DNA of 64,000 nucleotides from Rhodoferax ferrireducens (GTDB lineage Bacteria; Pseudomonadota; Gammaproteobacteria; Burkholderiales; Burkholderiaceae_C). Location: contig MTEI01000001.1 of the NCBI GenBank assembly GCA_002083775.1, positions 186,001 to 250,000 on the forward strand. The letters are read 5' to 3'. Shown one piece after another: positions 3,288 through 60,720 of this stretch. A model generated the notes under the pieces. It was not told the origin of the DNA. It did no database searches and saw only the letters and a program-made list of their open reading frames with translations. Position 1 is the first letter of the stretch, and every line of letters starts with the position of its first letter. Position numbers and translations under genes: made by a program.

Positions 3288-3337
3288 TTTATGATATTTA
3301 TGCCTCTAGCCCTTATACATAAAGGGCGAGCAGCTAT
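3288..3337 (+). repeat. Palindromic repeat, copy 1 (intergenic)
   Basis: This copy holds GCCTCTAGCCCTTAT, then AC, then ATAAAGGGCGAG and CAGCTAT. The arms CTAGCCCTTAT and ATAAAGGGC can form a hairpin. It lies in the 141-bp gap between the diguanylate cyclase and the DUF779 gene. It is one of about 13 related copies in the window. Confidence 0.85.
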
Positions 3338-3367
3338 AAAAAATAAATCGATGAGTGACTTGAAGGG

Positions 3368-3775
3368 TTAAGGGCTGGTGGGGCAGCTGTTGGCTGGGGC
3401 ATCCGGGCCAGGTGGGGCGATACCCAGTTCTGCCAGTTCTGCGGCGCTGAACACCCGCGATCGGGTGTGAAACGCTTTGCCTTCCGGCCCTTCCAGTGAA
3501 AAGGTGCCGCCATGGCCGTCAATGACGTCAATAATGAGCTGGGTGTGTTGCCAGTACTGATACTGCGCTTTGCCGATATAGAACGGGCAGCCGCCAATGT
3601 CGCCCAAATACACGTCGCCCGCGCCCATGGTGATTTCGCCGGGAAGGTAGCAGTTGGCGGCGCTGTTGTCGCAGCAGCCGCCGGATTGGTGAAACATCAG
3701 CTCCGGGCCGTGTTTGGTTTTCAGGAAGGTGATGAGTTCGAGTGCTGCCGGGGTGGCGATGACTTTATCGACCAT
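3368..3775 (-). CDS. DUF779 family protein associated with aldehyde dehydrogenase
   Basis: The 135-residue protein starts MVDKVIATPAALELITFL and carries the Cys-rich segment HQSGGCCDNSAANC and the stretch VYLGDIGGCPFYIG, typical of DUF779. Members are usually encoded beside acetaldehyde/aldehyde dehydrogenase genes; the biochemical role is not established. I chose ATG 3775 because TTGGAG precedes it by about 6 nt. A longer frame to 3856 adds residues with no family resemblance. It lies downstream of the aldehyde dehydrogenase on the same strand with a 194-bp gap that contains a REP-like element, so cotranscription is possible. Confidence 0.85.
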   Translation of the reverse strand: MVDKVIATPAALELITFLKTKHGPELMFHQSGGCCDNSAANCYLPGEITMGAGDVYLGDIGGCPFYIGKAQYQYWQHTQLIIDVIDGHGGTFSLEGPEGKAFHTRSRVFSAAELAELGIAPPGPDAPANSCPTSP

Positions 3776-3864
3776 GAGGTTCTCCAAAAAAAGAGGAGCA
3801 ACTATGCGCTCCCTTGAGAAAAATCGGCTTCTGAAGTCGCCAAAAAGAGGTGCCAAACGCGGGC

Positions 3865-3935
3865 TGTCATGGCGGGCTTGACCCGCAATGCAGACGGTTC
3901 GCAGTCATGGATGCCGGACCGAGTCCGGCATGACA
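3865..3935. repeat. REP-like double-hairpin element, copy 1
   Basis: The element is bounded by TGTCAT and ATGACA as an outer inverted repeat. Inside are two imperfect hairpins, GCGGGCTTGACCCGC and CCGGACCGAGTCCGG, around a central CATGGAT. Related elements are at 12076-12146 and 24576-24647. All three are intergenic. Confidence 0.85.
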
Positions 3936-3969
3936 ACCTGGCAGCGTCTGACGCCACCTTCCGGGCCGA

Positions 3970-5490
3970 TCAGAAGAACCCGAGCTTGTTCTCGCTGTAG
4001 CTCACCAGCAGGTTCTTGGTCTGCTGGTAATGGTCGAGCATGACCTTGTGGGTTTCGCGCCCGATGCCGGACTCTTTGTAGCCACCAAATGCCGCGTGCG
4101 CCGGGTAGGCGTGGTAGCAGTTGGTCCACACGCGACCGGCCTTGATGGCGCGGCCCATGCGGTAGGCCACATTGCCATTGCGGCTCCACACACCAGCGCC
4201 CAAACCATACAGCGTGTCGTTGGCAATCGCCAGCGCTTCGGCTTCGTCCTTGAAGGTGGTCACGGCCAGCACAGGGCCAAAGATTTCTTCCTGGAAGATA
4301 CGCATCTTGTTGTGGCCCTTGAACAGCGTGGGCTGCACGTAAAAGCCACCGGCCAAGTCGCCTTCCAGATGTCCCTGGGCACCACCAATCAGCACTTGCG
4401 CGCCTTCCTGCTTGCCCAAGTCCAGGTAGGACAGGATCTTGGTGAGTTGTTCCCTGCTGGCTTGCGCGCCCATCATGGTGGCGGTATCCAGCGGGTCACC
4501 TTGCACGATGGCTGCCACACGCTTGAGCACACGCTCCATGAACGCGTCATAAATGCTTTCCTGAATCAGCGCGCGTGATGGGCAGGTGCAAACCTCGCCT
4601 TGGTTGAAGGCAAATAACACCAGACCTTCGATGGCTTTGTCCAAAAAGCTGTCGTCCTTGTCCATGATGTCGGCAAAAAACACGTTGGGGCTTTTGCCGC
4701 CGAGTTCCAGCGTGGCCGGAATCAGGTTGTTGGCAGCGGCTTGCGCAATCACGCGGCCGGTGGTGGTAGAGCCGGTGAAGGCAATTTTGGCGATGCGTTT
4801 GCTGGTGGCCAGCGGCATGCCGGCTTCGCGGCCATAACCGTTGACGATGTTGAGCACGCCGGGCGGCAGGATGTCGGCAATCAGCTCGGCCAGGATCAGG
4901 ATGCTGATCGGGGTGGATTCAGCGGGCTTGAGCACCACGCAGTTGCCCGCGCCAATGGCCGGGGCCAGTTTCCAGGCCGCCATCAAAATCGGGAAGTTCC
5001 ACGGAATGATCTGGCCCACCACGCCGAGTGGCTCATGGATGTGGTACGCCATGATGTTCTCGTCGATCTCGCTGATGCCACCTTCCTGCGCGCGCAGGCA
5101 GCCGGCAAAGTAGCGGAAATGGTCGATGGTCAGCGGGATGTCGGCGTTGAGGGTTTCGCGGATCGGTTTGCCGTTGTCCACGGTTTCCACATAGGCCAGC
5201 AATTCCAGGTTGGCTTCCAGGCGGTCGGCAATTTTCAGCAGGATGTTGGAGCGCGTGGCGGCATCGGTTTTGCCCCATTTTTCAGCGGCGGTATGTGCGG
5301 CATCCAGTGCCAGTTCAATGTCTTCGGCGCCGGAGCGGGCCACCTTGGTAAAGACCTTGCCGGTGGTGGGCGTGACCACGTCAAAGTACTGGCCCTTGAC
5401 GGGGGCAACAAACTTGCCGCCAATGAAGTTCTCGTACTGCGCCTTGAATACGTGTTTGGCATCGGCGGCGCCGGGGGCTGCATAGATCAT
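3970..5490 (-). CDS. aldB: NAD-dependent aldehyde dehydrogenase (AldB/ExaC/AcoD type)
   Basis: The 506-residue cytoplasmic enzyme oxidises aldehydes, probably acetaldehyde, to the acid with NAD(P)+. It has the general-base motif LELGGKSPN (Glu262), the nucleotide-binding region FTGSTTTGR (239-247), and the catalytic cysteine in [12 protein letters not shown] (Cys301). PWNFP at 163-167 is also present. Length and the GEVCTCPSR motif fit the AldB/ExaC/AcoD branch. DUF779 downstream and a divergent AcoR-type activator upstream support acetaldehyde or acetoin/ethanol metabolism. A sigma54-like promoter lies 60 nt upstream of the start. Substrate is inferred from context. Confidence 0.93.
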
Positions 5491-59650: not shown

Positions 59651-59699
59651 GTGCTGGCGGGCTGACTGCGCGCCAACGGACTGCCAGTTGGTTGGGTCA

Positions 59700-60089
59700 C
59701 TACAGCGTCGGGCGCTCGATCAGTTCCACCTTGTAACCATCCGGATCCGTCACAAAGGCAATCACGGTGCTGCCGCCTTTGACCGGGCCCGCCTCCCGGG
59801 TGATCTTGCCACCCGCAGCGCGGATCTTGTCGCAGGCGGCTTGGGCATCAGGCACACCCAACGCGATGTGGCCGTAGGCGCTGCCCATCTCGTAAGTGTC
59901 TACCCCCCAGTTGTAGGTGAGCTCCAGTTCAGCATGGTCCGGGTTGCTGCCGTAGCCGATAAAGGCCAGCGTGTACTTGTACTCCGGGTTCTCAGACGTG
60001 CGCAGCAGCGTCATACCCAGCACCTGGGTATAAAAGTCGATCGAGCGTTGCAGGTTGCCAACGCGCAGCATGGTGTGAAGGAGTCGCAT
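59700..60089 (-). CDS. gloA: Lactoylglutathione lyase (glyoxalase I)
   Basis: The 129-residue metalloenzyme converts the methylglyoxal-glutathione hemithioacetal to lactoylglutathione. It has the metal ligands in [20 protein letters not shown] (His), ELELTYNWG (Glu), YGHIALGV (His) and VELIER (Glu), and VLGMTLLR. Length is usual for Ni-dependent GloA. I chose ATG 60089 because the longer frame to 60218 has no family similarity. Confidence 0.95.
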
Positions 60090-60235
60090 GAAGAAAAGTC
60101 CTGATGGGTTGGGAGGGATGGCGCGCGTTGAAAATTCTCCAGAGCACCAAATGATGGGTAACTTTAGCGTCTGAAGGTCGGGCGTGGCCGGGCTGGGGAA
60201 TAATCCACAGCCTTTCAACCCACTGCGAGCCCTTC

Positions 60236-60619
60236 ATGCCTGTGTTGACCAAAGTTGTTCTGTTCACCGATACCGATGGCCGTGCGCGTTTTCGTGAGGA
60301 AACCGTGGCGCTTGACCAAGGTAAACCCGAATCGGCGCTCTCGGCACTGATGCCCTCTGGCGGCTTTCAGCTGCGCCAAAGCCCGCTCGGGTTTCGCAGC
60401 AGTTTTCACTGCACCACCGATCCCCAATGGGTGTTTATCCTGGGCGGTCAGATGGAAATTTTTCTGCAAGATGGCAGCTCGCGGGTTTTCAAACCCGGTG
60501 AACATTTTTATTCGGCAGACGTGTTACCGGCAGGGCAGACGTTTGATGCCACGGTACATGGCCACTGGAGCCGCCAGGTGGGGCCCGATGCGCTGGTCAC
60601 GCTGTTTGTGCGCGGTTGA
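60236..60619 (+). CDS. Cupin-fold protein of unknown function
   Basis: The 127-residue protein has a single cupin-like barrel: WVFILGGQMEIFLQDGSSRV followed by FKPGEHFYSADVLPAGQTFD. Only some of the usual cupin metal ligands are seen (an HF in GEHF and a late HGH). It starts MPVLTKVVLFTDTDGRARFR. It diverges from gloA across 146 bp. Substrate unknown. Confidence 0.75.
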   Translation: MPVLTKVVLFTDTDGRARFREETVALDQGKPESALSALMPSGGFQLRQSPLGFRSSFHCTTDPQWVFILGGQMEIFLQDGSSRVFKPGEHFYSADVLPAGQTFDATVHGHWSRQVGPDALVTLFVRG

Positions 60620-60660
60620 GCCAGAAAGGCCAATTTGTCACGGCTGTGTGTGCTTAATTG

Positions 60661-60720
60661 CTATGTTTAAAATAGCTATTAGCCCATATAGATAAAGGGC
60701 TAGAGGCATAAAAGGCATAT
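60661..60720 (-). repeat. Palindromic repeat, copy 13 (intergenic)
   Basis: On the minus strand: TATGCCTCTAGCCCTTTATC, TATATGGGCTA and ATAGCTATTTTAAA. It lies between the cupin gene and the rhlE terminator. Confidence 0.88.

Follow-up and report, generated by a model that had tools for sequence, protein, structure and literature searches.

The 64-kb stretch of Rhodoferax ferrireducens DNA analysed here (hereafter the window) raises the question of how a palindromic repeat comes to stand both between genes and, in frame, within conserved genes, and what keeps its copies there. A preliminary description had listed about 13 copies of an element of roughly 50 bp and predicted hundreds in the genome. 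The patterned unit is in fact a gap-free 66 bp (a length drawn from 30 copies selected by an exact left arm), and the predicted abundance was borne out, since extrapolation from a 464-kb sample gives about 710 copies per 4.47 Mb, or about one copy per 6 kb. The excess over chance is strong genome-wide: a two-block weight matrix at threshold 14, a score that neither the reversed 464 kb nor any of 30 Markov-shuffled versions of the window attained, yields 74 matches in the sample versus none in the reversed control, and the left-arm 15-mer with at most two mismatches occurs 440 times in the whole genome versus once for the reversed pattern. In the window, the 15-mer with at most three mismatches is found 14 times, with 0.61 expected and none of 100 shuffles giving as many. 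No Rfam RNA family matches the window at the gathering score, and no published description of the 66-bp family was found in the literature searched. The Beta-proteobacterial repeat element (BRE), which occurs in Comamonadaceae including Rhodoferax and Polaromonas with some copies in coding sequences, was considered as an identity; as described (PMC3110155), it is about 90 bp long, has 69% G+C in Bordetella, numbers up to 29 copies and is sometimes tandem, so that it is set apart by length, number and base composition as given there and not by alignment.

Eleven of the 13 listed copies were confirmed in the window, nine of them by covariance model R1 at E<1e-6. Three are intergenic, namely 3285..3350 (plus strand; R1 E 1.7e-16; matrix 55.8), 14152..14217 (plus; 1.9e-13; 45.4) and 60659..60724 (1.1e-11; 59.7), the last with its orientation corrected to the minus strand. 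The copy at 13794..13859 (plus; 3.1e-13; 40.5) overlaps nothing but ORF 13810-14151, a questionable prediction that lacks a Pfam match above cut-off; that at 25798..25863 (plus; 2.4e-17) lies between genes and overlaps the end of ORF 25862-28537 (minus) by two bases, with a same-place copy in G004, G070 and G060; and that at 43881..43946 (plus; 6.4e-16) follows immediately on ORF 43120-43881. The remaining three R1 matches involve coding DNA: 32907..32972 (plus; 4.2e-8) lies in sense phase 0 in an rsuA-like gene (32811-33578), where same-codon copies exist in 12 of the 19 congeners compared; 48174..48239 (plus; 5.2e-9), detected by the covariance model alone with a matrix score below 14, spans the end of ORF 47365-48219 and extends to the first base of ORF 48239-49441; and 49573..49638 (plus; 1.9e-7; 39.4) occupies the initial codons of the short ORF 49564-49827 in sense phase 0. 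Two further copies have high matrix scores yet only marginal R1 values: 21738..21803 (plus; matrix 32.6; E 0.022) is antisense, in phase 2, within an EPSP synthase-cytidylate kinase gene (20549-22546, minus; Pfam), in its EPSP synthase portion, and 56640..56705 (plus; matrix 36.0; E 0.12) is in sense phase 0 within ORF 55383-57308. The copies listed at 50883 and 53315 were not confirmed; their best matches, both on the minus strand, are at most possible degenerate copies (50872..50937, matrix 1.7; 53311..53376, matrix 6.6), neither of them matched by R1 at E up to 10.

That the family is both intergenic and in frame within conserved genes, as first proposed, holds beyond the window. In the 464-kb sample 29 of the 74 copies (39%) lie in genes, essential genes among them, and 28 are intergenic, which by arithmetic from these counts makes the density about tenfold higher outside genes than inside. 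Coding copies do occur on both strands, but their supposed freedom of frame is limited to two frames, one per strand, in 28 of the 29 cases, and these are the frames most often free of stop codons.

Comparison of orthologous sites reveals stable positions. Between the close species G004 and G070, over about 80 kb, all 13 copies have a same-place counterpart (11 above threshold), with no presence/absence polymorphism at these 13 copies. Where close species differ in the element, it is mostly by scattered single-base changes. Between G000 and six further element-bearing congeners, same-place counterparts were found in 39 of 43 anchored comparisons. This set also supplied the copies of the x257 site, for which just 2 of 15 genomes gave an anchor in the congener comparison of protein lengths. 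Rickettsia palindromic elements, to which the family had been likened, are palindromic repeats standing in frame inside genes, and are insertions that lengthen proteins. A recent in-frame insertion of this kind is not supported here: the congener comparisons yielded no clean empty site of 66 bp, and within the genus the lengths of truB and rsuA stay the same, protein length being equal in congeners with and without the element, with one exception per site. At these two genes the copies persist in more distant species at almost constant length (TruB exceeds its E. coli counterpart by four residues). Smaller differences exist elsewhere: 11 of 19 genomes show a net 21 bp at tex, and a yfiH-like gene differs by a few residues relative to G003. 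Site L255:14781, which is 81 bp shorter in the element-less G003, is the sole site compatible with a full insertion, and such an insertion could explain the 81-bp difference.

Copies related to the family were detected in 62 of 150 sampled Comamonadaceae genomes, the element-rich ones including Acidovorax soli, three Polaromonas, three Rhodoferax and one Curvibacter. On the tree the family is absent independently in G003 and G006, lineages among or beside bearers; it is lost in some lineages among the bearers. Each genome has its own dialect, also present at shared sites. Over 41 in-gene comparisons the variable letters tend toward the dialect of the genome in which they stand (mean own-dialect rank 2.76 of 12, equalled by none of 5000 label shuffles), in a test that removes phylogeny only in part. 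The rsuA copies lag: 6 of the 11 genomes keep older-dialect letters there, at ranks 4 to 12. The palindromic character of the element likewise holds for some dialects only: the hairpin is strong in G000, G004 and G070, but near chance in G047, G051, G061 and G071, and the consensus at its foot is GTAG in G000, G048 and G060 and GCAG in G005, G010, G047, G051 and G071. The description of the family as some 700 dispersed copies with stable positions, copies in essential genes, genome-specific dialects and lineage absences can be held with high confidence.

This behaviour is closest to that of DNA uptake sequences, from which a function may be inferred: the copies would be kept and re-spelled in place by uptake-type exchange, making the element a candidate DNA uptake signal of Comamonadaceae, a reading to which we assign a probability of about 0.4. 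As in Neisseriaceae and Pasteurellaceae, DNA with a good match would be favored in exchange between cells. The local dialect would be the one preferred by a receptor belonging to the competence machinery, and uptake and recombination of matching DNA would let each site drift toward this preference; if the preference shifted, the sites would follow one by one, and if the receptor were lost, all copies would decay. The sites themselves may have arisen before the genus, perhaps as palindromes spread by a RAYT nuclease. The same-place counterparts, the own-dialect ranks with older spellings left at rsuA, the scattered single-base differences, the independent absences, the spread of element-rich genomes over several genera, the over-specified sequence and the lack of strand bias by replichore (both taken up below) all speak for this reading. 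Like the DUS of Neisseriaceae and the USS of Pasteurellaceae, the family has hundreds of genic and intergenic copies and lineage dialects, which are known for the uptake sequences of Neisseriaceae (PMC3630211), and sequence-specific natural transformation has been described for Verminephrobacter eiseniae and A. temperans (PMC4212676). However, the DUS and USS cores comprise about 9 to 12 bp and are denser, whereas the unit here is 66 bp with a partly palindromic center; for an uptake signal this is long, and one copy per 6 kb is sparse. The net length differences at tex, yfiH and L255:14781 also weigh against uptake, as does the modest strength that any purifying or driving force on the element looks to have: between close species the element diverges by 8.2%, compared with 5.0% and 6.8% in its flanks, and changed cells number 15 of 276 at high-information positions versus 16 of 144 at low-information ones. 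The uptake channel gives no separation of element-rich and element-poor congeners, since 15 of 16 in each group carry comEC.

The presence of a RAYT-type gene elsewhere in the genome, which had been suggested as a check, was verified, and with it a REP-type family run by this resident HUH tyrosine nuclease has to be weighed. In such a system the hairpin would be nicked in single-stranded DNA and the copies overwritten with the current master, with a copy at the RAYT stop codon as the source. A match to an NCBIfam equivalog (86.1 bits; cut-off 80) places the gene in the REP-associated class, its HUH and tyrosine are invariant in 25 sequences, and it occurs in 52 of 60 congeners, mostly as one close copy per genome. 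Of 19 element-rich congeners, 15 have an element copy across the RAYT stop codon, and of 13 element-poor ones none; arithmetic from the 464-kb sample predicts such a copy by chance at about 3% of genes. Furthermore, the strongest co-varying pair among 294 copies is a stem pair (9/23 switch), and double-changed stem cells number 41 versus 31.8 expected, a count that 8 of 500 shuffles reached. Both the stop-codon copy and the stem-pair switch fit a RAYT-driven family at least as well as uptake. REP elements are extragenic, with a stable palindrome of about 20-40 bp and a GTAG or CGTC tag at the foot of the hairpin. REP/REPIN systems are further resembled in the spread of the family over many congeners and the hairpin-capable center of the window dialect, but differ from the element in its 66-bp length, in the 39% of sampled copies inside genes where REPs are extragenic, in the restriction of GTAG to some dialects and in the weak hairpin of others. 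No compensatory stem changes were found within a dialect. Moreover, no movement of the element was seen between close species, where there is little sign of block replacement, and the copy linked to RAYT may be just a further fixed site. RAYT is not sufficient for the family: it is kept without it in G003, G006, G045 and others, as well as in Variovorax, Hydrogenophaga and Ramlibacter. Conversely, the element-rich G170 and G192 have a sole RAYT of only 40 to 48% identity, and 12 of the 150 genomes have no RAYT match, one of them element-rich (74% completeness). Taken over both sides, a RAYT-driven origin of the pattern seems rather unlikely, if well worth considering. The flanking repeat of the RAYT cassette, TTGGGGTCAGATTCCAATTA, was tried as the dispersed parent and had no match with up to three mismatches in 789 kb outside RAYT loci. 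The end of the cassette resembles the right end of the element.

Two further explanations are improbable. Inert old mobile palindromes, similar to those of Rickettsia, may have inserted before the genus arose and been passively inherited, the dialects reflecting which ancestor inserted what, and both the net length differences at the three sites named above and the roughly tenfold density outside genes agree with this. However, passive inheritance predicts old letters, yet orthologous copies tend toward their own dialect, and copies remain recognizable in bearers while G003, at similar divergence, has none. A trifle less probable still is a binding site for a chromosome-organizing or other protein of double-stranded DNA, kept by ordinary selection, with dialects from co-evolution of protein and site. 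Its rigid spacing (the nominal gap in all but one match in the congener stretches), A+T-rich flanks, partial dyad symmetry and high extragenic density would suit such a site, but it holds far more information than siting needs: in G000 each site carries about 58 bits, a figure inflated by the score threshold, with about 38 bits in positions 0-35, whereas about 14 bits would place 700 sites, so that the element is over-specified, like copied or driven motifs. In addition, selection alone would hardly re-spell 700 sites, constraint between close species is weak, and orientation follows no pattern; the 15 best G070 matches had seemed sorted by replichore, but the larger set (150 matches in G070; 44 stretches of G070 and G010) showed no strand bias. 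Chance similarity or protein conservation alone can practically be dismissed given the absence of matches in the reversed sample and the 28 intergenic copies, although at the GltB tail and in rsuA part of the match consists of residues that non-bearers share, and the objection that distant genera carry the same residues applies in part at one site, the GltB tail, as a similar tail of 26 residues occurs in an element-less Hydrogenophaga.

A role of the element in uptake would account for sequence-specific DNA uptake in two Comamonadaceae and would set a simple barrier against gene exchange within a large family of environmental bacteria. Should RAYT be the driver instead, domesticated nucleases would be rewriting fixed sites. 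Tentatively, and with somewhat more reserve than for uptake-type exchange as such, Comamonadaceae may be the third family of bacteria in which a DNA-uptake or DNA-recognition signal exists, here a word of 66 bp whose dialects are rewritten in place at fixed sites numbering in the hundreds, perhaps with the help of a domesticated RAYT nuclease, and which shapes essential proteins in their loops and tails. Either way, hundreds of protein segments would be shaped by a process at the DNA level, which matters for annotation and for tests of selection. Plasmid and phage searches by blastn, which is weak for 66 bp, matched few Comamonadaceae records. The element word also occurs inside a widespread integron cassette, which hints at the origin of the cassette.

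The repeat in the host genome (G000; 4.47 Mb in 44 contigs) is a gap-free unit of 66 bp with the consensus anTTaTAaGnnAAATngGCCTCTAGCCCTTATncaaaAAGGGCTagtAGCTATnnattnngTAGca. Among 30 aligned copies, which were selected for an exact left arm, the patterned columns span -17 to roughly +48 relative to GCCTCTAGCCCTTAT, and the flanks beyond look random. A weight matrix of two blocks, in which the inner arms are ignored, detected 74 copies in 464 kb (the window and 20 further stretches) and none at the same threshold in the reversed sequence. This extrapolates to ∼710 copies in the genome, in agreement with the hundreds anticipated in the preliminary description; a genome-wide covariance-model search scored the best 150 places and is not usable as a copy count. 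Nine of the 13 copies originally named were recovered by the covariance model and two more by the weight matrix, while those at 50883 and 53315 were recovered by neither.

With gene models from a codon-usage script (382 genes, 87% coding in the 464-kb sample), 28 of the 74 copies are intergenic, 11 lie over a gene 3′ end, 6 over a 5′ end and 29 within genes, so that the density outside genes is about 10 times that inside, if all copies not within a gene are counted as outside. Sense copies within genes use a single phase (17 of 17) and antisense copies a single, different one (11 of 12). Sense phase 0 is free of stops in 24/29 in-gene copies compared with 13/45 others, and antisense phase 2 in 19/29 compared with 12/45. 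The two frames used are those most commonly without stops, so that removal of stops suffices to account for the frame lock.

The positions of the element are old and fixed. The congeners G004 and G070 share 93.6% identity across 3.5 kb at the tex locus; of 13 G004 copies, 11 are matched by a scoring copy at the corresponding G070 position, the remaining two also align at their G070 places (one via a 1-bp gap), and in the reverse direction the agreement is 11/11. When 21 copies of G000 were compared with six other bearing congeners, an element scoring at least 16 was present in 39 of the 43 comparisons anchored on both flanks, 10 of the 21 sites giving no such comparison. The non-bearing congener G003 has no element at its 11 anchored sites and no copy in 110,571 bases. 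The truB element is present in 12/18 congeners and the rsuA element in 12/19, and the proteins are of equal length in bearers and non-bearers, except in G053 (TruB longer) and G006 (RsuA three residues shorter). Residues PVKC.QSA.EF.A of RsuA in non-bearers look like a decayed element, although this is a reading of the sequence. TruB has four residues more than that of E. coli, and Tex has 10 more than that of P. aeruginosa at the place of the element. Tex is seven residues longer in 11 genomes with the tex element than in eight without, three of which (G047, G051, G052) carry the family at other places; in the flanks of this element residues IKLMAK and IEKVVV are mostly retained, with codons shifted towards A+T. 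Among 52 loci for the GltB C-terminus, the six tails with an element score of at least 16 have 26 to 32 residues, and those of four element-less Hydrogenophaga have 26. The one site that is compatible with full insertion is L255:14781, where the element-less G003 is 81 bp shorter.

Every genome compared spells the inner part in its own way: GCCCTTAT...AAGGGC is common to G000, G004 and G070, whereas G010 has GcGCTTgT...GCGCAAG, G047 GCCCCCGT...GCGcAAG and G071 GCCCaCGT...GCgTaAg. Eight of the twelve consensuses of these dialects were built on just 7 to 14 copies. Among 41 orthologous in-gene copies at five sites, the own dialect has a mean rank of 2.76 of 12 (6.5 expected), being first in 14 and first or second in 27, and 0 of 5000 label shuffles matched this rank; part of the signal is phylogeny, since the label shuffle keeps ancestry. 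At the rsuA site (window 32907-32972) the own dialect ranks only 4 to 12 for six of 11 congener copies, and these lagging copies look like an older GCCCCCGT dialect. As a single site carries differing dialects across genomes, the letters have changed in place. G004 copies differ from their G070 counterparts mainly by scattered single-base changes, with a divergence of 8.2% in the element compared with 5.0% and 6.8% in the flanks. Changes fall in 15/276 cells at high-information positions and in 16/144 at low-information positions (12 of 13 pairs); the pull towards the consensus is therefore modest.

In a FastTree phylogeny built on tex, truB and rsuA, with the root taken outside this clade, G003 is nested inside bearers (support 0.993 for DNA, 0.924 for protein) and G006 adjoins the bearing G047 (0.999 and 0.997). 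Model matches number zero in G003, G006, G045, G050 and G056 and one in G053; sampled stretches of these six genomes, 20 to 111 kb long, hold no copy, 20 kb being a small sample, since G019 lacks a copy there yet has 17 model matches. Tree placement and absent matches together suggest that the family has probably been lost more than once. At tex (L294), G003 has the short form of the protein and G071, outside G003 on the tree, the long one, a pattern that might be explained by reversion, by recombination or by a misplaced tree branch.

Taken together, fixed sites, dialects, site-by-site re-spelling, relic sites of an old dialect, excess information and loss in single lineages make the family look closer to DNA uptake sequences than to mobile elements, and an uptake signal is the likeliest of the readings. 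We infer an uptake step, a receptor and the direction of cause; comEC does not distinguish element-rich from element-poor genomes. Sequence-specific DNA uptake through type IV pili has been described for Verminephrobacter eiseniae, and transformation of A. temperans succeeded only with conspecific DNA (PMC4212676); DUS are discussed there, with no motif named in the portions covered here. The papers that the literature searches listed, most subscription-journal papers falling outside them, yielded no description of the family (PMC3110155 and PMC3630211 in part; PMC3733652 and PMC2817692 for taxon names only).

The main rival is that element copies are overwritten by the RAYT. A gene of this type, for which a search had been proposed, is indeed present on contig C9 of G000 (234 residues, NCBIfam REP_Tyr_transpos), and an element lies across or just before the RAYT stop codon in 15/19 element-rich compared with 0/13 element-poor congeners (32 examined). 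Matches to the gene were obtained in 52/60 congeners (51 at ≥66% identity, a few fragmentary) and in 138/150 genomes of the host's taxonomic family (E ≤ 1e-30); as the gene persists in lineages without the repeat family, it is not sufficient for it. Of all pairs of positions in 294 copies, the one that co-varies most strongly, 9 with 23, is a stem pair, C-G in some dialects and G-C in others. For 81 copies, 68.2% of stem cells are paired and 41 cells are double-changed (31.8 expected; 8/500 shuffles as high); the first 32 copies, selected by left arm, gave no covariation, and within single dialects there are no compensatory changes. Copies of G000, G004 and G070 fold strongly; the fold of those in G047, G051, G061 and G071 is close to chance. 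In most RAYT flanks listed (L002:1021-1120, L113-L142) a repeat AATTGG(A/G).TCTGACCCCAATTA adjoins the gene on one side or both, with no further match at ≤3 mismatches in 789 kb, and probably represents the cassette's own ends. An ordinary IS200/IS605-type TnpA gene (143 residues; G000:C27:25644-25997, L001) lies in a 2.8-kb locus without the element.

A sequence-only model built from 81 copies matched 62/150 genomes and 58/141 genera of the host's taxonomic family, with at least 34 matches in 41 of the 150. Eight of 19 named genomes, all chosen via their RAYT gene, are rich (Acidovorax soli, three Polaromonas, three Rhodoferax and one Curvibacter; 117 to at least 150 matches each); three Variovorax have 1 to 3 each, and three Hydrogenophaga, Ramlibacter, Caenimonas, Limnohabitans, Hylemonella and a Nevskia MAG have none. 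A copy is also found on plasmid pCTX-M3 (NC_004464.2; L393:887-952, matrix score 43.6), in a DUF1010 cassette, which we take to be gcuF, flanked by dfrA12 and aadA2 within a class 1 integron. Many enterobacterial plasmids have like matches (1751 records when every match at E ≤ 1 is counted), 20 of the 25 matches listed being DUF1010, which suggests a Comamonadaceae genome with the element as the source of the cassette. A record of 31.9 kb, listed as a plasmid of Rhodoferax antarcticus, likewise bears at least one clear copy (L394:1491-1556, matrix score 50.5).
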